A stretch of 13,091 bases of DNA from Cytauxzoon felis. Lineage: Eukaryota; Apicomplexa; Aconoidasida; Piroplasmida; Theileriidae. This document shows positions 1 to 13,091 of this stretch, piece after piece. The stretch's first letter is position 1; every line of letters starts with the position of its first letter. The notes under the pieces are model-generated. The model was given only the letters and a program-made list of their open reading frames with translations, made no database searches and was not told the origin of the DNA. A program made the position numbers and the translations under genes. The stretch lies in the NCBI GenBank assembly GCA_020283715.1, contig JAIQCW010000151.1, forward strand, positions 1-13,091, read 5' to 3'.

Positions 1-66
1 AAGCGGAGGGGGAAGTAAATAGAAGAGCTGACGGCAGGATGATGAATCTGATTGACCTCGGGTGGA
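1..66. repeat. Partial copy of the GC-rich repeat, cut by the window edge
   Basis: It starts inside the AAGCGGAGGGGGAAGTAAAT block, continues through AGAAGAGCTGACGGCAGGA and ends in GACCTCGGGTGGA, the usual right-hand terminus. It lies 3' of the proposed stop of the DNAJC11-like gene. Since every complete non-exonic copy in the window is intronic, it may sit in a further intron of that gene or of a neighbour outside the window. Confidence 0.75.
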
Positions 67-84
67 AAGACGTATATATATAAA

Positions 85-1417
85 TTATAGATTAATAGAT
101 GAGATTAGAGGTTGAGTATTTCTAGATTGGTGAGTGAGTATGGACCTTTGACATAGCCGCCGTAGATTAGATGTGATTTTTTTTGGTAATGATAATGGTT
201 TACTATCTGATACCGTAACTTCATGTACATTATTCTAATATATTTTTTTTAATTATAGAATGAATATTTAATAATTAATTGATTAGACATACCCTAAATA
301 TATATAAGACATATAATTGTGCTTCATTATCATCATTAATACCATTTTCCTATAAATTAATAAATGGGGGAAATTATCCACATACAAAATCTAATGGATT
401 ATAAAATCCAGGTAAATATGCAAATGATGTTATATTACCATAATTTAAATGTAATATACTATTCTGTACTAATATCTGTAATTGTAATGTTACATCAATA
501 TATGGACCCTTTATATGCTTCAAATCTATCGTAGTCAATGATGTTATACACTTAGGATCTATCAAACTCAAATCACCATATAATGCCCTCTTTATTATCA
601 AACCTATAAAACAATTAATATATACAACAAACATTAATACATATAAAGTTCAATGCAGTTGCTTATCAGTCCACCTGAGGTCGTCCTGCCGTCAGCTCTT
701 CTAATTACTTCCCCCTTCGCTTCCCTGAGATCAGCTTCGGGTTCCACTCGAGGTCTAGTACTATTATTCATTCCATCTTCGCCACGATCTCTGGGAGTGG
801 CTATACTCTTTAGAGATAGGTAATTAGAGAAGCTGACGGCAGGACCAAGAGAGTTGGATTGGACCTCAGGTGGAGGTGAGTGGAAGAAGAGTTGGATTGT
901 AATCGAGTACAGTAGTCATTAGATTCCAATGTTTATGTGTAGACATACCATTTTGTGTGTATTCGTGATTGATGGATTTATGGTATGTATCGGTTTTATC
1001 ATTGATAAATGTAAAGTATTTTTGTTTCATGATATCGGAGATGGTGATTAGTTTTTCATTAACGTCATTATTTTGATATATACCGTTTGAGATATCGTAT
1101 AGTATTCTTTGGTATTCATTTGATAGTACATCATATGCTAATTTAATTTCATTTAATAACCATGAGTAATTTGTATTACCAGTTCTATATATATTATTAA
1201 TAATATATTTAATTATAATATATACAAACTTATCTGGATGAAATATACGTGCGAAATGATAATATGATTTTCTAATATCGGCTATACTACAATGTGTATC
1301 TAATTCCAATATATTATAATGTGTTAATTTATTATTCATTAATAATTTATCACGTTTATTTAAATATATATTTATTGTACTAGATAAATTATTATCATCA
1401 ACTATACAATCAGACAT
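85..1417 (-). CDS. DNAJC11-like J-domain protein with C-terminal DUF3395 domain, spliced
   Basis: Five exons read right to left: 1417-1230, 1184-949, 603-386, 349-293 and 234-85. They join in phase to about 282 codons ending in TAA. The J domain is at about residues 33-95 with HPD at 60-62; removing the 45-base intron restores the normal HPDK-TGN spacing. The C-terminal half matches the DUF3395 region of DNAJC11, seen in GLIIKRALYGD, YIDVTLQLQILVQNS, LPGFYNP and LYVLYIFR. In animals DNAJC11 works with MICOS at mitochondrial cristae; the same role here is inference. The protein is about half the usual length (about 560 in animals): the J domain plus a short linker runs straight into DUF3395, so the central beta-barrel-like region is absent. 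The 604-948 intron carries a repeat element. The 3' end is the least certain part, because a last intron could run off the window. The start is the first ATG before the J domain. Confidence 0.85.
670..874 (-). mobile_element. Short-form intronic repeat element 1 (DNAJC11-like intron 604-948)
   Basis: The ends are TCCACCTGAGGTCG and GGACCTCAGGTGGA. The inner arms also pair: GTCCTGCCGTCAGCTCTTCT on the left against the complement of AGAGAAGCTGACGGCAGGAC on the right. The middle holds the conserved block GCCACGATCTCTGGGAGTGG with the ACTCTTTAGAGATAGG tail. GC content is far above the flanking sequence. Degenerate terminal-like sequence continues to about 898. Confidence 0.8.
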
Positions 1418-1531
1418 CTTGTTAATTAATAAATTATATTAAAATCATTTTTATATTATATAAAAAAAATTATTACTATTAAATACACTTTTCATTGCGA
1501 TTAAAATTTATTTTATACACAAATTAATTAT
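1418..1531. other. Intergenic spacer: 3' end of pyrophosphorylase gene, upstream of DNAJC11-like gene
   Basis: 114 bases of very AT-rich DNA. It must hold both the transcript end of one gene and the promoter of the next on the same strand. A run of A (about 1461-1468) is the only feature seen; no recognisable promoter motif. Confidence 0.6.
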
Positions 1532-3910
1532 TCATATTATTACATTCCCCTCTTCATATATACTCGATGATATACACTTGTGTGGTAATATTATACATCC
1601 ACGTATAAATAAACCATCCATCACGTCAACCGAATTACCAAATACACTCAAACCCTCTATTCTCACCTATAATTTACATATATACAATCCATCGAATATT
1701 ATCAACCACTCAAAGTTCAATCCTACTATCTCCAACTAGGCCTTCCACCTGAGGTCGTCTTGCAGACAGCTTCTCTATTTAGTTCCCCCTCCAGCTCCCA
1801 TAGATCGCTTCCAGGTTTCATTTGAGGTTATAAACCTTATTTCGCTGAGATAAGTCTTAAGTGATGGAATCCATGTTTGTTCGGATACCTCAATGAATAT
1901 AAATTGGAATGAAGTGAGGATGAGTAAACTCAATACAATCATCAAATTCCTTTTCAATGAGATATTGATATTAGAATTACATTCAATCGTCATTGAGTAA
2001 TCTTCATTAGTTTCCCCAGAAATTATGATTTTCCTTCAAATTTTCGAGGTAAAAATGAAGTAATGAAATTCGTGATTGGACCTCGAGTGGTACCCGTAGC
2101 TGATCTCAGGGAAGCGAAGGGTGAAGTAAGTATAGAGGCCACCACGGCGAGTGGAAAGGAGAGGTGGATAGGACCTCAGGTAGAGTGTTCATTGTGTTCG
2201 TGTAAACAAACCCATGATCCGATATGTGATTTCCATCCGATGATTGATCTATGTATATATGATCCATGATCTATTTTAGCGTCTATAAAATGAAATATTA
2301 TCGGGGATATGAATTACTTTTCATGATTGACGATCTTGTTATTCTTGAATAATTACCTACAACTACATTTTCTGATATTACTACATTTGGTCCAATTATT
2401 GATCCATTACCGATTTTAGCTGTCTTATGCTATAATAAATGGTGTTTTTTACCCCGACATTTATAGTGTTATAAAACATACAATTAAACATACACCTTTG
2501 AAATTAACCCCATTAAATATATTTGTATATGAGTTTTCATTTACATTTGATTTATCATTATTATCATTAGTATAATAAATCAATATACTATCATTATATA
2601 ATCTTAATATCCTATTACAACCATTCATATCATCAAAACCATCCATTGATCTCTTATAATATCTATAATCATCATTCAAATCACTAGTCAAATGCAAATA
2701 TTGCCCCTTTAAATATTCACTCGGTGTCCCAATATCAGACCTATAAATGTAGGGGTAAAAAACACTATAAAACCCCACAACATACCAATAACCAGTTAGA
2801 GGATGACAATATACATTACCCAATGAGACAAATTTAGGAAATATTTGACGTTCAATAGATGTATTTTCTAATGGTATGGAATCAATAACACTTTTATTCA
2901 ATATATAAACACCTAAAAATTATAAAAAAAATACGAGTAGATATACATACCAGCATTTATTAAATCCGATACAAATTCAGAAGGCTTCTCAATAAAACCC
3001 GTAATCCTATAATCCGTATCATGCAATACCACACCAAATGAACTAGGATTATCCACCTTTGTCACCTATATATTAAATTATAACGTAAAATTAGAATGTC
3101 CAATCTACTCCACCGAGGTTACATCCACTTGAGGTCCAATCCACGTCTGTTCCTCTTGCAGAGAGCTCTTCCAATTACTTCCCCTTCCAGCTCCCATAGA
3201 TCGCTTCCAGGTATTCCATTTCCACCTGATGTCCAATCACTACACTTCAGCCACGATCTCTGGGAGTGGCTTTACTCTTTAGAGATAGGTAATTGGAAGA
3301 GGCTCCACGCCGAGTGGAATTAGACGTGGATTGGACCTCGGGTGGAGTGTTATCGATGATCATAAGACGTACGAGTATAGTGATGGTTGCGTTTTTTTGT
3401 CTATGTGATTTGAGTAGTTCATTGAGTGGGTATTTGCAGATGACATCTGTGTTTAATACAAAGAATTCATTGGAGTCATCGTTTTCTTCGCATAATAAAT
3501 CTTTGGCTAATCTTATACAACCGGCTATTGACGAAGATTATAATTTCCAAAGAGTGACATACCAGTCCCTAAAGGTGATGATTCTATAGAATAGTCCATG
3601 CGTATATCATACTATAATAGGTAATTTTATAATTCATTTAACATCAACTAACTTTTAATTTCAATTCTTCTATTCTTTTTATAAGTTCAGGTTGAGATTC
3701 TGAGAAGGCGAGTATAATATGATCAACACCGGCCTAATTTATTAATAATAATATGAATTTCATAATCTTCAATAAATGTACCTTTTTAGCAGCGGAAATT
3801 TGATACTCTATAATAGGTGAATTACAAAATTCTACCAGAGCCTTAGGTACACTCAATGTCAATGGACGTAATCTGGTACCATGTCCACCAGATAATATTA
3901 AACACTTCAT
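1532..3910 (-). CDS. Mannose-1-phosphate guanylyltransferase (GDP-mannose pyrophosphorylase, GMPPB-like)
   Basis: The enzyme makes GDP-mannose from mannose-1-phosphate and GTP in the cytosol, feeding GPI-anchor and other mannosylation. Ten exons: 3910-3782, 3733-3653, 3611-3563, 3524-3373, 3065-2951, 2912-2786, 2740-2482, 2429-2318, 2282-2212 and 1666-1532. All join in phase to about 409 aa ending in TGA. The nucleotidyltransferase signature [19 protein letters not shown] is at residues 8-26. It is followed by [56 protein letters not shown] and [17 protein letters not shown] left-handed beta-helix tail follows ([29 protein letters not shown]) and ends in ILPHK, as in GMPPB. It is longer than human GMPPB (360 aa), mainly through an Asn/Asp/Tyr-rich insert of about 40 residues after the transferase domain. 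Nine introns; those at 3066-3372 and 1667-2211 hold repeat elements. The start lies directly before the conserved N-terminus. Confidence 0.93.
1744..2184 (-). mobile_element. Long-form intronic repeat element 2 (GDP-mannose pyrophosphorylase intron 1667-2211)
   Basis: The ends are TCCACCTGAGGTCG and GGACCTCAGGTAGA. Blocks related to GAGCTGGAGGGGGAACTAAA and GAAGCGAAGGGTGAAGTAAG face each other in opposite orientation near the two ends. Between them is the long-form module (1826-2075). The intron splices the beta-helix exon to the C-terminal ILPHK exon, so its limits are well fixed by homology. Confidence 0.8.
1826..2075 (-). repeat. Long-form module, copy A, with a short hydrophobic reading frame
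   Basis: An AT-rich module shared with 5226-5489 and 10688-10945, recognisable by TCAATGAATATAAATTGGAAT and TTTCCCCAGAAATT. This copy is inverted relative to the other two. On the minus strand a frame from ATG 1993 codes a basic start then a hydrophobic segment ([19 protein letters not shown]), like a signal peptide or anchor. It runs into the repeat blocks and stops at 1775. No family was recognised. Confidence 0.7.
2430..2481 (-). other. Microintron with internal GGGG/CCCC unit, orientation 1
   Basis: A 52-base intron from GTATGTTTTATAACAC to TTTATTATAG. It contains CTATAAATGTCGGGGTAAAA followed by AACACC in host sense. The same unit occurs reversed in the intron at 2741-2785. Splicing joins GVCLI to HKTAKIG in the beta-helix, consistent with homologues. 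Confidence 0.8.
2741..2785 (-). other. Microintron with internal GGGG/CCCC unit, orientation 2, stop-free
   Basis: A 45-base intron, GTATGTTGTGGGG to CTACATTTATAG, in which GGGGTTTTATAGTG and TTTTTTACCCC can pair weakly. Its length is a multiple of three and it has no stop, so a retained form would add 15 residues inside the GYW-SDIG motif. Confidence 0.8.
3109..3344 (-). mobile_element. Short-form intronic repeat element 3 (GDP-mannose pyrophosphorylase intron 3066-3372)
   Basis: The ends are CTCCACCGAGGTT and GGACCTCGGGTGGA. The copy-specific stretch CCAATCCACGTCT in the left arm has its exact complement AGACGTGGATTGG in the right arm. The central block GCCACGATCTCTGGGAGTGG is at about 3250. 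Splicing joins ATITIL to [11 protein letters not shown], a conserved part of the enzyme, so the element is clearly intronic. Confidence 0.82.
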
Positions 3911-4094
3911 TATTTATCATGAATATATATCTATTATATTAATTTTAATTTTAAAAATTTTATTTTATTGTCAATACTTCAACCACATATCACCTTTAGA
4001 TTCCTATAGTACACTTCCCCCTTGTACTTTTTAACTCTATTCAAATTCATTAAAATAAGCTCTTCTAACAGATGTTTTCATCACTAATTTCATC
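3911..4094. other. Intergenic spacer between CLEC16A stop and pyrophosphorylase start
   Basis: 184 bases, AT-rich, with no repeat element. It holds the 3' end of the upstream gene and the likely promoter of the downstream one. No motif recognised. Confidence 0.6.
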
Positions 4095-7000
4095 TCATTT
4101 ATCATAAAAATATTGTTTCAATGATGTTATACAAGACTCCTCTAATGAATTCTTCATCTCCATATGACTCGACATAACACACATCATATCATCATTATTT
4201 TCAAATATCAACTCGAAATCCGTCACAGCCGGTACCAATAATGTATCACTATATGAAATTATATATAATATATAATAATCAGCTCCACCTGAGGTCCAAT
4301 CACTAACTTCCACTCGACGTTCCACCTGAGGTCGTCTTGCAGACAGCTCTTCTAATTACTTCCCCCTCCGCTTCCCTGAGATCAGCTACGGGTTCTCCAC
4401 TTGAGGTTACATCCAAAGCTCTACTTTTGCCACGATCTCTGGGAGTGGCTATACTCTTTAGAGATAGGTAATTAAAAGAGCTGACGGCAGGACGAAAAGA
4501 TGTGGATTGGACTTCAGGTGGAGGGTTGAGATGGTGTTAGTGTTGTATAAGACTAACGTAAATTTTTGGTGTTTATTGATATTTTTCCATTCATTATGCC
4601 AGATTATTGAGACGGTGATTGTATATGTTTTAGGGTTATTATTTTTCATGGTGGTGTTCCAGAGTGGATGTATACATCTATGATTATATATATTAATGAA
4701 TGAGTAATATTAAAACATACGTAATTTCCCCACATTTAGGTGGTATATTCTGTTCATTATATTTTAATAATATAAAAAATATATCATGTGTTATATATAT
4801 TCTCTTCTTCTATAAAAAAGGGGGTTTTTTATCCCGATTTTTTTTTCAATATATATTCAACTTACTTTATCACCATTATTATTCATTATACAATAATATG
4901 ATTTGAAATTATCTAAATTTAATTCTATACCCAAATTCAATGGTTTACCATCAATAGTACGTAATGATAATGTATTATTATATAATAATGGACAATAATC
5001 ATATATATAATCACTATTCATAACTAATTCCTTCTCATCCATACTATTATACAAATCCCTTATCAATAATAACACCTATATATTATATTATAAATACATA
5101 ATGAAACTCCACTTGAGGTCCAATCCACCATCATCTACTCCACCTTGTTTTCCCACTCGCCGTGGTGGCTTCTCTATTTACCTATCCCTTCGCTTCACTG
5201 AGATCAGCTGCGGGTTCCACTTGAGGTCATATTCACTAATTTCACTAGTGCATTTTTATGTCTAAAATTTGAAGGAATTCTTGAATTTCTGGGGAAACTA
5301 CTGAAGATTACTCAATAACTATTGGATGAATTTCTGATGTTAATACTTCGTTCAAGAGGAATTTGTTGATTCTATTTGATTTACTCATCCTCATTTCATT
5401 CCAATTAATATTCATTGAGATATCCGAACAAACATAGATTTCATCAATTTAGACTTATCTCGGCGAGATTAGGTTTATAACCTCAAATGGAACCTGTAAG
5501 CGATCTACGGGAGCTGGAAGGGGAAATAAATAGAGGAGCTGTCTGCAAGACGAAAGAAAGGTGTATTGGAGATCAGGTATATATTAATATATGGATTGTA
5601 TATAGAAACGTACTTGTGTATATCTTCTGAATGTATCATTATTATTTTTGGGTAGTAGCCATGTATAGTTATTGATTTGTGTATCGATTTTTTTATGTTT
5701 ATCTTTATTAAAGAGCCAATTGGAGAAGAGATTTGAATTATTATTATCGATATTATTTTGATCATATATATAATTATATAATGATTGTATATAATTAAGA
5801 TAATAATTATTATTAATAAAACGTTTAAATTTAATCCATTCATCAAAAAATATAGTAAAATATGTATTATTATTATTAATAATAATATTTAATATATAAT
5901 TTCTTAATAATTCTAATGATGTATCAATATGAAACATTAATTCATCTATAAATGTATATAATAATGTATTATTATTATATCTTAAATAATTTATATATTT
6001 TATAGTATTATATACAGCTAATCTTATTAATGGTACTCTTAAATTTATTAACATTATATTACGTGATATTATATTCCATATCTGTAAATATAATTGTAAT
6101 CCTATATCACAACATGGCATTAATATAAATTTCATCAATTCCATTGATAATATATATTCATCATCTACATCATCACCTATATCATTACATTCATATAATA
6201 TATAATCATCCTGTAATTTATATAATAACAACAATAACATCATTAAACCATTATCATTACTAGGTAATGATAATAAACCATACTTTATAAATTCACCCAT
6301 CATTATATTACATACATAATCACCCCTATTCAACTCTTCCAATATATCATCTTCCACTTCACCTGAGGTCGTCCTGCCGTCAGCTTCTCTATTTAGTTTT
6401 CCCTCCGCTTCCCGTAGATCAGCTCCGGGTTCCACTTGAGGTCCATTAACAAGACTTCGTTCTTCCGGGTTACTCTCTGTTCTTCCGGGTTGAATATTTA
6501 CGTTCTTAGGGGTTGAGATTCTTTGTTCCTCCGGGTAGAATTCCTGTTCTTCCGGGTTGACATCGCCACGATCTCCGGGAGTGGCTTTACTCTTTAGAGA
6601 TAGGTAATTAGAAGAGCCGTCTGCAAGACAAGTAGAGTTGGATTGGACCTCAGGTGGAGAGCTGTCTGCAAGACCAACGGTGGAGGCGAGTGGAACAGTG
6701 GTTGTAACATTGTGTATATTATTGATGGTGATATCATATGGTAAATTTGTATTGTAGGTTGGAGTTGTGCTAGATACAGTATATATTTCTACAGTTGATT
6801 TATCAGCTGTTTCTAAACCTGAGGTTATATCATTACTATAAGTCATATCAATATTTTTTACACTTCCAGTCAAAGTCATATCCATCTCGTCTTCCATTGC
6901 CGTAGAGCCCTCACCACTCGAGGTCCAATGCCCTTCCTTCGTCTTGAAGACAGCTTCTTTATTTAGTTGTCCCTCCGCTTCCTTGAAATCAGCTCCGGGT

Positions 7001-9684
7001 TCCACTTTAGGTCCAGTACTAACTCCACTTTCCATTCCACTAGGCGTGGTGCCTTCTCTATTTACCTCACCTCGACTCCCATAGATCGTCTCGGATACTC
7101 CACTTGAGGTTACATCCTCACTACCTTCGCCACGATCTCCGGGAGTGGCATCACCGTCTACGGGGAGTGAGTTGGAAGAGCTGACGGCAGGATATACCTC
7201 AGGTGGAGAGCTCTCTGCAGGAGAACGCGAGGTTGTAACCTCAGGTGGAGAGCTTACTGCAGGACTGACCTCAAGTTTAGGACTTTCATTTGTGTTATCA
7301 TTATATGATGTATAATTATTGATGATTCCATTAGAGAAGATATATTTTGACCAGATATTGAGTTTATTGTAGAGTAGATCATCATCATATCTGGAGAGTT
7401 TATTATTAATGATGTTATTAGCTCTTGGTGAATTTGGTATAGATATGCTATCATTATTTTGTATAACTTCAAGTATATTTCTTGGTATTATGGGGCATAA
7501 TAATAATAATAATAATAAATTTTTTATATCATTACGTTTACATGACTATAATAATTATAAATGGGGTTTTTTAACAAAAAATTATAACATACCATTATTG
7601 ATATTATAATTATAAAATATGATACATTAGGTAAAAATGTACTTGAATATATTACTAAACTATCATCACTTCTTGGTGTTAAATTTTGTACCCCACTATC
7701 CCCATTATCACTGACCCCATTTTTTACAACAATATCATTGAATTGATGGAATTTCCCATCAATATATATTTTTTCTTTATTAATAATCATTAATTCATTA
7801 GAGAATAATTCACTTTTATTATTGGCATATTTATCAACTAATCCTAATTCTCTACATAGCCTTTGATATACATTACGATAATAATTAGCGTTTAAATTGT
7901 TGGGTAAATTAATATTATCCAATATTGTTATATCAATATTAGTCTTTAATACATGTTTTAATAATGGTATAAAGCATATATTAAATAATCGTACCAATAA
8001 ATGCTATAATATATTATATATCTAAATTATAATCTAATTACCCTATTTATATCCTCAATCTCTAAATCCATCAATTCTTGTATAAAACATAATACATCAT
8101 CACATTCAACTGTTAATAATGGGGTTAAAAAACACTATAACCCAACATACCAATTAAATTTTCCTCGTTTTTACCAATTGTTAATAAACTACCATTCTTA
8201 ATACAATTATTCAATCTACACCAACATTGCCTCAAAAATAAAGGCTAAATTATAATATAATAAAACTATATAATACTCACCAATTGTATCAAAACCCTAG
8301 AACGATTTATAACGTAACGTGTAACAGATGGATCATTCACTGAAATATTATATAATGAATATATTCACACGAGGTCCAATCCACCTGAGGTTACAACCAC
8401 CGTTCCACTCGCCGTGGAGGCTCCTCTATTTACCTATCCCTAAAGGGTAATGCCACTCCCGGAGATCGCGGCGATGAGAAGTTAGTTATTGGACCTCAAG
8501 TGGAAGTGGAATACCTGGAAGCGATCTATGGGAGCTGGAAGGGGAAGTAAATGGAGAAGCTGACGGCAGGACTGACCTCAGGTGGAAAGGCAAGATAATG
8601 GATGGATGAATGATGCAGATATTGGACTCGATATATTCGTTAGTGTTACATACCTCTGAGTATATTTAGGAGTATGGTCATGACATGTGTTCTTTTCATG
8701 CTATCACCACTTGTTAGGAATTTAGCTGATTGATCTAATAATGGAAACTTTTCATTTTTCTAATAATGGGGTTAATTATTTATAATATATTAAATTACCT
8801 CTTGAAAAAAGAATTTAATTGTAATGGGGTTTAATAACCCGCTTAATGTTTTTAATAATGATACAGTCCAACTACTAACATCACCACCACCATACATATC
8901 AGGTATAGATATTAATGTATTGATATAATTATTCGATAATATATAATCTATAATTATTAATATCTAAATTATAATAAAACTTACATAATGTACGCTCATT
9001 CTGAACATTATGTATCAACATTGATATCGTCTGAACCAATTGTATACGTACAGCCCTAGATGTCGATCTACTCAATACACTCGTCATATAATCCAACATA
9101 TTCTCCTCACAAAAATACCTATAACATTATATAAACCATCAAACAACTCATCTTCCACCTGAGGTCCAATCCAACTCTTCTTCCACTTGCCGTGGTGGCC
9201 TCTTCTATTTACCTCCCCCTCAAGCTCCCGTAGATCGCTCTCGGGCTTAAGGCCACGATCTCCGGGAGTGGCTCTACTTTTTAGAGATAGGTAAATAGAG
9301 AAGGCCTCCACGGCGAGTGGAAGGAGAGTTGGAATAGAGATGATATTGATTGTAACCTAGGGTGGATTACCCATTATTGGACAAAGCTAAAATGTTCTTG
9401 GAGATTGACTAACTCGAAGATGCTTTCTTTATCGTTGGCATCGCTCCAGATGATGAGTTCAGCGATTTGTCTGAGTGCATCGACGATATCATTAGCTGAG
9501 ACGAGGTTAATGACATCATTATTTAACACATTGCGATGTAATGTTCTGAAATGAGGAAATGATTATAAATTTATTAGAATTTCTACCTGAATGTTTCGAA
9601 ATTCAGACCATCTTGTAGTGAGTTTGATTTGCGATTAGTATCAGATAGATTTTCATTTAACTTTAAATCATCTGATTCTACCAT
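4095..9684 (-). CDS. CLEC16A/Ema homologue with FPL domain, 14 exons, with exonised repeat insertion
   Basis: Exons: 9684-9587, 9545-9414, 9118-8985, 8947-8799, 8759-8654, 8339-8281, 8244-8151, 8109-8042, 8003-7593, 7545-5614, 5075-4866, 4809-4721, 4677-4558 and 4248-4095. They sum to 1252 codons including TGA. The N-terminal FPL region aligns closely with animal CLEC16A: LRQIAELIIWSDANDKESIF, YILSNNYINTLI, LKTLSGLLNPITIKFFFQE, HLLVRLFNICFIPLL. Later exons keep FFDEWIKFKRF, RRYTQVLLLIRDLYNSM and FELIFENNDDMMCVMSS in the same order. Animal members act at endosomes/lysosomes in mitophagy control; the role here is inferred. About 310 residues (roughly 503-815) in a region that is poorly conserved in animals are encoded by GC-rich repeat blocks that stay open in frame. 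An eight-leucine run comes from TTA repeats near 7500-7525. Four introns carry repeat elements: 9119-9413, 8340-8653, 5076-5613 and 4249-4557. Confidence 0.88.
4284..4522 (-). mobile_element. Short-form intronic repeat element 4 (CLEC16A last intron 4249-4557)
   Basis: The ends are TCCACCTGAGGTCC and GGACTTCAGGTGGA, with the central block GCCACGATCTCTGGGAGTGG at about 4429. The left arm has the CTTGCAGACAGCTCTTCT cassette while the right arm has the GAGCTGACGGCAGGACG cassette, so this copy looks like a mosaic. A second TCCACCTGAGGTCG lies inside the left arm at about 4320. Confidence 0.8.
5108..5580 (-). mobile_element. Long-form intronic repeat element 5 (CLEC16A intron 5076-5613)
   Basis: The left end is TCCACTTGAGGTCCAATCC; the right end is degenerate (GGAGATCAGGTATA). 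Inverted copies of the GAAGCGAAGG / GAGCTGGAAGGGG block flank the long-form module (5226-5489). Splicing across it joins RRYTQ to VLLLIRDLYN, matching animal CLEC16A without a gap. The module is inverted relative to the one in element 2. Confidence 0.8.
5226..5489 (+). repeat. Long-form module, copy B
   Basis: It matches copy A in reverse orientation across its length (GAATTTCTGGGGAAACT, CATTCCAATTAATATTCATTGAGATATCC). The hydrophobic frame of copy A is broken here by stops and frame changes, so this copy is not coding. Confidence 0.7.
6353..7280 (-). repeat. Exonised, composite repeat array inside the largest CLEC16A exon
   Basis: The same blocks seen in the introns occur here in multiple copies: the GCCACGATCTCCGGGAGTGG block at about 6565 and 7128, DLREAEG-type blocks at about 6400 and 6975, and CTGACGGCAGGA and CTCTCTGCAGGA cassettes. 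The host frame stays open throughout on the minus strand, giving for example PKVEPGADFKEAEG and NGPQVEPGADLREAEG. A non-repeat stretch of about 200 bases (6690-6900) interrupts it. Animal CLEC16A has a poorly conserved, probably disordered segment here, so the insertion may be tolerated. No good splice pair removing it was seen, but alternative splicing cannot be excluded. Confidence 0.75.
6458..6560 (-). repeat. Degenerate tandem minisatellite coding PEEQ/PEER motifs
   Basis: Four clear copies and one decayed copy of a unit like TTCTTCCGGGTTGA lie at about 6460, 6479, 6502 (decayed), 6523 and 6545. Read in the CLEC16A frame they give NPEEQ, YPEEQ and NPEER. The unit is not found in the intronic elements, so it is specific to the exonised copy. 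Confidence 0.75.
8110..8150 (-). other. Microintron closely resembling 2741-2785 in an unrelated gene
   Basis: A 41-base CLEC16A intron, GTATGTTGGGTTATAGTGTT then TTTTAACCCCATTATTAACAG. The first 28 or so bases are almost the same as the GDP-mannose pyrophosphorylase intron at 2741-2785, apart from a small deletion. Confidence 0.8.
8364..8586 (+). mobile_element. Short-form intronic repeat element 6, antisense to host (CLEC16A intron 8340-8653)
   Basis: It starts at TTCACACGAGGTCC, with a standard TCCACCTGAGGTT 20 bases inside, and ends in GACCTCAGGTGGA. The central block reads GCCACTCCCGGAGATCGCGG on the plus strand, opposite to most copies, so the element is inverted relative to its host gene. 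Splicing joins the FPL-domain exon ending LLNILR to VNDPSVTRYV. Confidence 0.78.
9154..9366 (-). mobile_element. Short-form intronic repeat element 7 (CLEC16A intron 9119-9413)
   Basis: The ends are TCCACCTGAGGTCCAATCC and AACCTAGGGTGGA. The arms pair through TTCCACTTGCCGTGGTGGCC against GGCCTCCACGGCGAGTGGAA and CCAACTCTTC against GGAGAGTTGG. The central block is at about 9252. Splicing joins ESIFE to YFCEENM, which aligns without a gap to animal CLEC16A. Confidence 0.82.
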
Positions 9685-9943
9685 GACTTTAATACCATTT
9701 ATATAATAAAAATATTAAATACAACATCAATTGCTGAATCTTATTAAACTCTTATCATTTCCCCATGTCCACTGAAGGTGGTCATCTATTGAACGTATAT
9801 TATACATCCTTCTCATAGAATATGTGTGGTGTTTAGAAGTATAAAGTTCTATTAACTTGAAGTTAGATATTATAACTGACGACATCGACATGTAAACATA
9901 TAATTTAAATTTACATTAAATTAGACAACACATTATAATTATT
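9685..9943. other. Intergenic spacer between FAM210-like gene and CLEC16A start
   Basis: 259 bases if the short last exon (9977-9944) of the FAM210-like gene is real. It is AT-rich, with no repeat element and no supported reading frame on either strand. Confidence 0.5.
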
Positions 9944-11598
9944 TTATTTGCCGAAATCTACAGTACCCTGACCTACACTAATCCACCTGAGGTCCAATCC
10001 AACTCTTCATCTCCACCTTATCTTCCCACTCGCCGTGGAGGCCTCCTTCATTTACTTCCCCTTCCAGCTCCCGTAGATCGCTTCCAGGTATTCCACCTGA
10101 TGTCCTGTACTAACTCCGCTCACACCTCTACCTTCTTCATCGCCACAATCTCCGGGAGTGGCTTTACTCTTTAGAGATAGGTAATTGGAAAAGGCTCCAC
10201 GCCGAGTGGGAAGATAAGGTGGAGATGAAGAGTTGGATTGGACCTTAGGTGAAAAAGTGGTGATTATGTGATACATCCGATTCGATTACTTTCTGAGTGG
10301 TTTGCTGATTAGACATGTTAAAATGATTGAGACTACTAGGCGTATAGGCTCTACGATTTTTGTTGCAATATAAGCTGCAGTGAATTTAGCAAATGTTCCA
10401 TCCATTTCTGGAACATTAAATGATGTTATATGTGCAAATCTCAACCATTTGTTTAAATCATCACTCGTTAAATATTCACAAAATACAACCGCCGTCATCC
10501 CCAACAACGTTACAACATATACACTAAAGAAATATGATGACATAAAGTAAATTATAGAATTGTTGTCCTCCACTCGAGGTCCAATCCTACTCTCCTTTCC
10601 ACCTGAGGTCCATCTTTTCATTGCATGGAGCCTTCTCTATTTACCTCCCCTCGGATTCCCGTAGATCATCCTCGGTAGTCCACCTGAGGTCCAATCACTA
10701 ATTTCACTACTTCATTTTCATGTCCAAAATTTGAAGGAAATCGTGAATTTCTGGGGAAACTCATGAAGATATCTCAATAAATATTGGATGTACTTCTAAT
10801 CTCACTACTTCATTGAACAGGAATTTGATGATTGTATTTAATATTATCATCCTCACTTCATTCCAATTTATATTCATTGAGATATCCTTACAAACATAGA
10901 ATCAGTCACTTTAATCATATCTCGACGAGATTAGAAATTAACCTCAAGTAGAACCTGGAAGCGATCTACGGGAGCTGGAAGGGGAAGTAAATAGAGAAGG
11001 CCTCCACGGCGAGTGGAAAGGAGACAGTACAGGACTTCAAGTGGAGCTCTCACTACATTCGCTTGTGTAAACATACCTTAGATATATGATAGCACCTAAT
11101 TTACCATATCTTTTAAGAGTGAGTAATGCTTTGAGTTTAAGCTATAGTAATGGTATTGAAGAATATATAATAAATTTAAATATACCGCTATAGATTGTTC
11201 AACAAATTTTTGTTTCATTTCATTTAATCTTTTTCTACGATTGGATTTATTAGTTAATTTATAAAAATTTTGTTTTTTAGTATTAATAAATGTACGAAAT
11301 TTAATTATTCTTAATTTTAAACGTTTAATATCAAATTTTTTTTATTAATAGTATTATTTATATAATATTTTTTATTAAATATATTAAATTTATTATTATA
11401 TTGTGTAAATTGATAATAATTTGTTAATATATATGATCGATTATAATGATTCCAATTATAATTTATAATATTTAATTTATATATAGGATTAAAATATAAT
11501 TTAAATGATCTATTAATATTATATAGACTTTGTTGATAATAATATTCATTAATTATAGATATATTTTTAATATATTTTAATATTTGTATATTATACAT
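9944..11598 (-). CDS. FAM210/DUF1279-type membrane protein, spliced; N-terminus uncertain
   Basis: The well-supported exons are about 11335-11186, 11141-11077 and 10523-10290. They give a basic N-terminal stretch, then LKRYGKLGAIIYLSVYVVTL, a first membrane segment, an acidic loop, and AAYIATKIVEPIRLVVSIIL as the second membrane segment. This is the DUF1279 layout of FAM210 proteins, which are mitochondrial membrane proteins in animals. A final exon 9977-9944 joins in phase through a repeat-bearing intron and ends in TAA; without it the protein stops at 10286. The N-terminus is unclear. The first in-frame ATG after an upstream stop is 11218 (about 121 aa). A separate 94-codon Asn/Tyr-rich frame begins at ATG 11598 and would continue into this frame only with a one-base shift at a run of eight T (11336-11343). 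Introns: 11142-11185, 10524-11076 and 9978-10289; the last two hold repeats. Confidence 0.75.
9982..10253 (-). mobile_element. Short-form intronic repeat element 8 (proposed last intron of the FAM210-like gene, 9978-10289)
   Basis: It has the best-matched arms of all copies: about 74 bases pair with roughly ten mismatches. They include copy-specific ATCTCCACCTTATCTTCCC on the left and its exact complement on the right. The left terminus lies only four bases from the proposed acceptor (GGTGGATTAG). The central block is CCACAATCTCCGGGAGTGG. If the last exon is wrong, this copy is intergenic. Confidence 0.8.
10570..11045 (-). mobile_element. Long-form intronic repeat element 9 (FAM210-like intron 10524-11076)
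   Basis: The ends are TCCACTCGAGGTCC and GGACTTCAAGTGGA. CTCCTTTCCAC in the left arm pairs with GTGGAAAGGAG in the right. It carries the long-form module (10688-10945). Splicing joins KRYGKLGAIIYL to SVYVVTLLGM inside the DUF1279 domain, fixing the intron limits. Confidence 0.8.
10688..10945 (+). repeat. Long-form module, copy C
   Basis: It is in the same orientation as copy B. The hydrophobic stretch is still readable from ATG at about 10830 ([12 protein letters not shown]) but ends at TAG soon after, unlike copy A. Confidence 0.7.
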
Positions 11599-13013
11599 TT
11601 TCAAATATATTTTTTAATTGTTTTGTTATATTTAAATTAATATTATTATTATTATTCATTAATATAAATTCATTATAATTACGTAATGATTCAAATGCTA
11701 TTTTATTATTATTATTATCTATTGATTTTAATTTTATACATAATTTAGAATATTGTGATATTATTACAATAGGTGCATCATACATGAACTAAATAATATT
11801 AAATTACTATTAATATAAATTTACTTCATTTAAATAATCCCAATTATTACACCATATATCATTTATATTCTCTATCTCTTTCTATATAATTATTATAAAT
11901 TCTTATTATATATTAATTAAACATACATATTTATCTAATTTCATAGTATATATTATTAAACCAAGTGATATTCTTAATAATGTAATAACCTTCTCTACAT
12001 TATTAGCTTTATAATCTTTAATAGACATGATTCCAACAATAGCTTTTCTAATCATTACAAATGCTGGAAAAAATTTTTTTAATAGTATTAATAAATCAAG
12101 AGAAATTATTCTATAACATACTCTCATTTATTAATGATAAATTATCATCCAAAATTATAAATAATAATTCAGATAATAAATATGATGCATATACTGATCC
12201 TATTTATATATTAATTATCATATATAATCACTCCACCTGAGGTCCACATTTCTTTTCCAACTTCTCTTCGTCTTGCAGACAGCTCTTCCAATTACCTATC
12301 TCTAAAGAGTAAAGCCACTCCCGGAGATCGTGGCGAAGAATCCGAGACGATCCATGGGAGTCGAGGTGAGGTAAATAAGAAGGCCGCCACGGCGAGTGGA
12401 ATGAAGAGTAGTACTGGACCTCGAGTGGAACCCGTAGCTGATCTACGGGAGCTGGAAGGTGAAGTAAATAGAGAAACCACTACGGCGAGTGGAAAAGAGG
12501 AGGCTGTGGCCTCAGGTGTAACGGAGTGTTGGATTGGATTTCGTGTTTATTAGTTTCTACCTTGATGATTGAATGAGTTTATGATTCTATTGATTATTTC
12601 TTGTATGGTTTCAATGATGATATTATATTTGCAGTTTATGTTTTTTCTGAATTTGATGAATTCTTTTGGTATTTTGAGATTGAATTTAGTATCTTTGTTG
12701 GTGATGATATTACCATTTGTACATAAATCCATTAATTGTCTAACTACAACTATCCATAATGTACATCTTTTTTCATCATTTAAATTAATTTCTATTGAAT
12801 TATTGTATTAAATTATTAATTTAATTACCTATTAATGCATTTTTACTCATTGAACGTAGTATCTGTACCTCTAGGAATAATAATGTACTTGTATCATTTG
12901 AGGATAATAAATGACCTTCTATGGTCTTTAAATGAATCTATAATTAAATGTTATATTTATAATTATTATTAATTTATACAAACTTCTTTACGCTTAATAA
13001 TATCGTTATTCAT
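11591..13013 (-). CDS. Unrecognised helical protein, 7 exons, about 279 aa
   Basis: Exons: 13013-12984, 12937-12829, 12791-12561, 12199-12122, 12063-11927, 11881-11825 and 11788-11591. They join in phase to 280 codons including TAA. The start is the first ATG, with an in-frame TGA two codons upstream. The predicted protein is leucine/isoleucine-rich and probably all-helical (for example LLFLEVQILRSMSKNAL, TLWIVVVRQLMDLC, YASYLLSELLFIILDDNLSL, VEKVITLLRISLGLIIYTMK). That suggests HEAT/ARM-like packing, but no family was recognised. The C-terminus is Asn-rich (runs of four and five Asn). The 12200-12560 intron carries an antisense repeat element. The 12064-12121 intron has the clearest polypyrimidine tract in the window (TTTTTTCCAG). 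The stop overlaps the ATG of the next frame on the same strand (ATGTATAA), which is odd for a nuclear gene, so the last exon may be wrong. Confidence 0.65.
12232..12543 (+). mobile_element. Short-form intronic repeat element 10, antisense to host (intron 12200-12560)
   Basis: It starts TCCACCTGAGGTCC and ends in a degenerate CCTCAGGTGTAACGGAG plus TTGGATTGGAT. The central block reads GCCACTCCCGGAGATCGTGG on the plus strand. It is followed by DLRELEGEVN-type and TTASGKE-type blocks, so it is inverted relative to the host gene. It is the largest short-form copy, with extra blocks on the right. Confidence 0.75.
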
Positions 13014-13091
13014 TATTCAAGAAATGTATTTATAACTGACGAAAATTATTTCAATTTTAAGAAAATATCACCCCATTAAAAGAAGAAAAAA
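13014..13091. other. Upstream region of the rightmost gene
   Basis: AT-rich leader and probable promoter region of the minus-strand gene starting at 13013, cut by the window end. No motif recognised. Confidence 0.5.

Follow-up and report, generated by a model that had tools for sequence, protein, structure and literature searches.

The repeat family in the window and in the genome

The window analyzed here is a stretch of 13,091 bases from the piroplasmid Cytauxzoon felis (contig JAIQCW010000151.1; contig 89, bases 1-13091; the assembly has 181 contigs and a total of 8.62 Mb). It contains genes with DnaJ, nucleotidyl-transferase and FAM210 domains as well as an open reading frame (ORF) of 653 codons, and many copies of a GC-rich repeat family with inverted ends, which is the subject of this study. 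Within the window, a k-mer mask delimited 12 copies and one edge fragment, 13 segments in total (Table 1). A previous sequence-only reading had described ten copies, presumably the ones that begin near 668, 1743, 3115, 4283, 5107, 8370, 9153, 9982, 10568 and 12231, and had placed all of them in introns. The existence of the family was confirmed: masked copies had a GC content of 39-54% (31% for the window), carried TCCACCTGAGGT...ACCTCAGGTGGA-type ends, and the 12-mer TCCACCTGAGGT occurred 1,654 + 1,652 times genome-wide, compared with 0 for its reversed control. Eight of the ten copies fell in predicted GT-AG introns; those at 9153 and 9982 were called non-genic and are possibly introns with weak sites. 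The outer limits previously given to the set, 604 and 12560, agreed with predicted introns 604-948 and 12200-12560, and the 40-140 bases said to be left after subtraction of the element compare well with the 69-113 bases that remained when the masked copy was removed from each of the eight introns. On the other hand, the restriction to introns did not hold, as two copies outside the ten (6360-6701 and 6913-7273) are located within the 653-codon frame, and exon and intergenic copies are also predicted beyond the window.

Table 1. Repeat copies in the window and the ORF that contains two of them
Feature	Position	Strand	Basis
Copy fragment cut by the edge, outside the range of the sequence-only reading	1..66	+	k-mer mask; ends ACCTCGGGTGGA
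Copy, sense to DnaJ-domain gene, predicted intron 604-948	668..899	-	PF00226 in ORF 866-1438 (minus)
Long copy with AT-rich middle, antisense, predicted intron 1667-2211	1743..2185	+	Mask, gene model
Copy, sense, predicted intron 3066-3372 of nucleotidyl-transferase gene	3115..3346	-	PF00483 in ORF 3247-3537 (minus)
Copy, sense, predicted intron 4249-4557	4283..4522	-	Mask, gene model
Long copy with AT-rich middle, antisense, predicted intron 5076-5613	5107..5554	+	Mask, gene model
Host ORF of 653 codons spanning both exonic copies; predicted exon 5614-7545	5587..7545	-	ORF, gene model
Exonic copy, sense, in frame within the 653-codon ORF	6360..6701	-	Gene model, frame, splice potential
Second exonic copy, sense, in frame within the same ORF	6913..7273	-	Gene model, frame, splice potential
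Copy, antisense, predicted intron 8340-8653	8370..8590	+	Mask, gene model
Copy oriented as the adjoining minus-strand exons; called non-genic, possibly weak-site intron	9153..9325	-	Gene model
Copy with 65-base arms 92% complementary; non-genic by gene model, intron in the sequence-only reading	9982..10252	-	Gene model, fold
Long copy with AT-rich middle, antisense, predicted intron 10524-11076 of FAM210-domain gene	10568..11044	+	PF06916 in ORF 10286-10636 (minus)
Copy, antisense, predicted intron 12200-12560	12231..12519	+	Mask, ends, gene model

To characterize the family, we used a sample of 213 kb of the genome, comprising the window, 180 kb of contig C71 and 20 kb of contig C4, in which 13, 57 and 11 segments were masked, respectively. 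The repeat density of the window was about three times that of C71, and scaling from sampled contigs gave a rough estimate of 4,800-5,100 copies genome-wide. The inner word ACTCCCRGAGATCG was similarly abundant (1,316 + 1,358 genome occurrences; 0 for its reversal). The 81 segments were about 80 to 521 bases long, the longest ones having an AT-rich middle, and 35 of them carried inverted CCACCTGAGGT/ACCTCAGGTGG, with at most two mismatches each, near both ends. Thus, features of miniature inverted-repeat transposable elements (MITEs) are present: the copies are short and numerous, their ends are inverted, and none of the 81 segments is long enough to encode a transposase. An Rfam scan of the window gave no match at gathering scores.

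Folding was analyzed for the 46 copies of 180-345 bases. More than half of them (26) had a folding z below -3, a value reached by none of the 25 control stretches. The mean z was -3.75 for intron copies (n=27), -4.46 for intergenic copies (n=9) and -3.86 for exon copies (n=10), compared with -0.2 for the controls. The hairpin at 9981-10254 of the window (274 bases) had a predicted energy of -157.7 kcal/mol and a z of -14.0.

Some other repeats were observed. The exonic copy at 6360-6701 contains an array of short TTCTTCCGGGT-like units (6449-6560) that keeps the frame. A low-GC, TTCTCAACTTCGTCTATAAATGAAATCATATCAAC-like tandem repeat at C71:154481-154810 was caught by the mask and represents a separate family; its two segments (154481 and 154732) were excluded from the counts below, leaving 79 segments, among which the edge fragment of the window was retained. 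In addition, at least 145 matches to the FAINT domain (PF04385), whose name stands for 'frequently associated in Theileria', were found in the assembly, in agreement with a Theileria/Cytauxzoon-type parasite.

Distribution over introns, exons and intergenic DNA

The location of each segment was called by a gene finder self-trained on the 213 kb, in which repeats were given a neutral score to leave the decision to their flanks. Predicted introns had a median length of 38-40 bases and GTATGT..TAG-like borders (312 confident introns; 622 repeat-free introns). The majority of the 79 segments (46) were called intronic, 18 intergenic and 15 exonic, which corresponds to densities per unmasked kb of 1.25, 1.68 and 0.10, respectively. 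Repeats are therefore strongly depleted in exons, and introns are not favoured over spacers, because the intergenic density is not below that of introns. When 200 random masks of similar length were placed on C71 alone, 116 were called exonic, 64 intronic and 20 intergenic; relative to these masks, introns were over-represented 1.8-fold (46/79 vs 64/200) and intergenic DNA 2.3-fold (18/79 vs 20/200). Convergent predictions flank at least three of the copies (C71 34043, 52321 and 93780). It should be noted that intergenic calls are the least certain output of the gene model, and that some of them, two window copies included, may represent weak-site introns.

These results bear on the first alternative, the earlier proposal of a non-autonomous DNA element, introner- or MITE-like, that targets introns. 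The intronic position of 46 of the 79 sampled segments and of eight of ten window copies, the smaller intronic share among random masks, and the inverted ends and hairpins all agree with it. However, spacers are at least as dense in copies as introns, and exon copies are numerous, with examples both in the window and elsewhere in the genome. Moreover, the median distance from the masked copy outwards to the predicted splice site is 48 bases for donors and 48.5 for acceptors (48 intron calls, the two tandem-repeat segments included), values that would shrink if the mask falls short of the true element ends. An absence of intron bias, which the sequence-only reading had named as a refuting result, was observed in comparison with intergenic DNA, and a bias towards introns in comparison with exons. 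We rejected intron targeting as the main explanation on the basis of the intergenic density, and consider it unlikely overall. What looks like a preference for introns can be the remainder after selection has purged most exon insertions from a gene-dense genome. We also considered that the element supplies its own splice sites (TGAG|GT..CTCAG|GT). This idea was rejected, since C is almost absent from position +3 of donors in this genome and the masked copies do not include the predicted sites.

A second and much smaller repeat was observed in five predicted microintrons of the window (2430-2493, 2741-2785, 4810-4865, 7546-7592 and 8110-8150; 41-64 bases), which share a GGGGTTTTTTA / GTGTTTTTTAMCCC-like motif and are more introner-like than the main family. 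This motif type had 32 sites in the genome compared with 1 for the reversed control, and was present in 17 of the 622 repeat-free sampled introns; 10 of 31 motif sites were in predicted exons.

Strand, frame and host proteins of exon copies

Exon copies differed from intron copies in orientation. The ratio of sense to antisense was 14:1 in exons and 23:23 in introns (Fisher p 0.0025). Among copies with both anchors, to which the frame count was limited, the 5' and 3' halves shared one frame in all eight clean exon copies, compared with 9 of 22 intron copies (p 0.004; 6/15 sense and 3/7 antisense) and one of two mixed exon calls. An open sense frame was found in all ten clean exon copies, in none of three mixed exon calls and in 11 of 55 others (segments below 130 bases or without orientation excluded), a comparison that is partly circular because an exon call requires an open frame. 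All 11 copies within long open frames contained the same peptide words in a single frame. Insert peptides include ATPGDRG and ADLREAEGEVNR stretches.

We also searched the genome with the peptide read from each strand. Of the best 150 of 4,697 candidates for the sense peptide, 59 were in open frames of 300 codons or more (44 in frames of 500 or more), two of these frames, on C120 and C14, being matched twice; for the antisense peptide, none of the best 150 of 1,457 candidates was in a frame above 230 codons. These figures are shares of the best-scored matches and not totals, and the two queries differ in length (53 residues for sense, 58 for antisense) and in the words they hold.

Host proteins were identified for several frames. 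The frame C71:38652-39962 matched arginyl-tRNA synthetase (ArgRS; PF00750, E 2.2e-40; PDB 4zaj, E 2.5e-33). In this frame, 97 residues separate two aligned blocks (query 287 end, 385 start) vs 24 in the human enzyme, and the surplus of 73 residues fits the 218-base copy at 38849-39066; relatives of solved structure do not have the insert. Further open frames with copies contain ERCC4, GAF or TCF25 domains, or are weakly histone-like; the GAF frame carries three copies. Six of the host frames examined were chosen by length among the sense-peptide matches and not randomly. The histone-like match is at the end of ORF 1-2481 (minus) of locus L039 (C32:15600-19300), with an E-value for PF00125 of 1.7e-5, a match that falls just short of the Pfam cut-off. 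By eye, this stretch resembles H3/CENP-A, and two in-frame repeat copies lie upstream of it.

A second alternative is that exon copies are true introns or retained introns (exitrons), whose frame is open by chance and whose RNA is spliced. Such a possibility gains some plausibility from the GC richness of the element, hence few stops, and from intron copies being evidently tolerated elsewhere. However, chance would not readily account for 14 sense calls out of 15, for one frame in every clean both-anchor copy, for long frames holding 59 of 150 sense and no antisense best-scored matches, or for an open sense frame in just 11 of the 55 non-exon copies. The splice signals also argue against it. 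Counted over 110 bases, the median splice potential (donor plus acceptor) was 4.9 around the 11 clean exon copies, lower than the 7.6 around 150 random exon sites (p 0.045), and the ArgRS copy has no GT at all in the 110 bases upstream. For the 46 intron copies, a set chosen partly on splice scores, the value was 10.9. We therefore regard splicing of the exon copies as very improbable.

An equally improbable alternative, that a functional coding peptide module was spread by gene conversion or recombination and that intron and intergenic copies are its decayed by-products, is consistent with the recurrence of the same words in unrelated proteins, up to three times per protein, and with alternative words at like positions, but third-position changes show no clear excess in exon copies, intron and intergenic copies outnumber exon copies and match the reference words equally well (identity 0.90-0.91 vs 0.89), and antisense intron copies are as frequent as sense ones.

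Mobility

Comparison of the 35 copies with both ends revealed no target-site duplication (best match mean 1.83 vs 1.80 for shuffled pairings). A search of the genome for PF13843 (piggyBac-type) gave no match, the control being silent as well, and other transposase families were not searched. A reverse transcriptase match was found in a single open frame (PF00078, C56:73693-74436, 1,010 codons), which is perhaps telomerase. Arm-to-arm matching of the kind that would show hairpin-templated copying was not detected by arm ranks or chimeric folds. Our best guess for the mobilising mode is a MITE-like DNA element mobilised in trans. A repeated, inverted-terminus hairpin does occur in many predicted introns, in both orientations and with the splice sites outside it. 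The non-autonomous DNA element of the sequence-only reading is plausible and unproven, no target-site duplication having been found.

Proposed explanation

On the basis of these results, we suggest that the family is probably a hairpin element that lands widely, is filtered by selection and works in the manner of Rickettsia palindromic elements (RPEs), surviving in exons only where its open strand and the frame fit. The direct sequence evidence consists of the hairpins, the predicted presence in introns, intergenic DNA and exons, the mixed orientation of intron copies, the single strand and frame of the clean exon copies, the open frames that continue through exon copies, and the poor splice signals flanking these. 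Copies would land widely, and selection would then purge most of the exon insertions. Those in exons would persist only with the single open strand in frame and, judging from the frames, orientation and weak splice signals, would then be translated as a hydrophilic, probably disordered insert. In contrast to these, intron and intergenic copies would be free in orientation and free to lose the frame. The family would thereby act as coding-compatible selfish DNA, like the RPEs.

Several observations weigh against this explanation. First, the location calls come from a self-trained model: it still assigned 54 of 64 pure-exon masks to exons but 10 to introns; the copy at C71 46492 was called intron despite a 1,014-codon open frame that spans it; and 4 of the 15 exon calls, including the sole antisense one, are mixed and doubtful. 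Second, a shared frame is also present in five of seven intergenic copies, and the ArgRS frame has a further stretch without human counterpart (residues 146-188, about 43) that is not masked as repeat. Third, the two arms of one element matched each other no better than arms from different copies: the median rank of an element's own arm was 31.5 of 59 (among the top three in 5 of 60), and chimeric hairpins from 38 copies folded about equally well (p 0.18). Co-variation of arms within an element was dropped as a candidate on these grounds, yet a few copies (for example, the one at 9982) are strikingly mirrored. Fourth, no target-site duplication was found in the 35 copies with both ends. Finally, mismatches by codon position were 42, 25 and 38 in exon copies, 78, 49 and 48 in sense intron copies, and 60, 33 and 51 in antisense intron copies, without a clear sign that the inserted peptide is conserved in exon copies. 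The first two codon positions were thus not clearly more conserved, which suggests a peptide that is tolerated and not required.

More tentatively, and with less confidence than in the proposed explanation itself, the family could be a still-active eukaryotic nuclear counterpart of the RPEs, with a reservoir in introns and spacers and with tolerated exon copies that, by extrapolation, add one to three segments of about 30-120 residues to hundreds of proteins, a tRNA synthetase among them and perhaps also a protein resembling centromeric histone. Such a dense eukaryotic case would illustrate the way in which an invasion is tolerated by a compact genome: either orientation is accepted in introns and spacers, and exons act as a frame filter. 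It would also offer a naturally occurring test of how an insert of 70 residues is accommodated by enzymes such as ArgRS. In addition, it warns that repeat-derived peptides may be present in gene models, antigen lists and protein alignments of such genomes.

Comparison with known systems

The introners of Amoebophrya have inverted repeats at both intron ends and direct repeats of 3-5 bases over the exon borders, and introner elements are also named there for M. pusilla and A. anophagefferens (PMC7789003). The family in C. felis resembles them as a set of repeated, hairpin-forming intron sequences with inverted repeats in an alveolate. However, the gene model predicts splice sites tens of bases beyond the copy as well as copies outside introns, so that the introner feature examined, that the element itself is the intron, fails here.

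With MITEs (PMC7789003, PMC10969869), the family shares short length, high copy number, inverted ends and the lack of a transposase; it differs in that a target-site duplication was not detected in 35 copies and a limited search gave no partner transposon. A survey of 64 Apicomplexa genomes reported that class II transposons were absent, its MITE candidates having been discarded as probable false positives; it described long interspersed nuclear element-like (LINE-like) elements in some Babesia and in T. equi, whereas C. felis, T. parva, T. annulata and T. orientalis had no transposable elements (PMC9141347). PARCELs are palindromic DNA sequences that code for protein repeats in microbes, eukaryotes included (PMC2996958). 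They are set apart by a 25-residue motif that is repeated in tandem, often in ORFs targeted to membranes, whereas the copies studied here are dispersed in unrelated proteins, introns and spacers. No eukaryotic description of a family like the present one was found in the part of the literature that was searched, in which coverage of subscription journals was poor.

Repeats that can be read in exons are best known from Rickettsia. RPEs are described as palindromic repeats of about 150 bp in unrelated metabolic genes, many of which keep the frame and add a conserved peptide to the protein, and 44 RPE insertions are given for R. conorii (PMC10969869). These elements are bacterial and have no introns around them, whereas the family described here belongs to a eukaryote and comprises about 5,000 longer copies with a reservoir in introns and intergenic DNA that holds both orientations. 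Nevertheless, the family works like the RPEs in two respects: it is a hairpin repeat, and it is inserted in frame in unrelated protein genes, with a fixed strand and a fixed frame.

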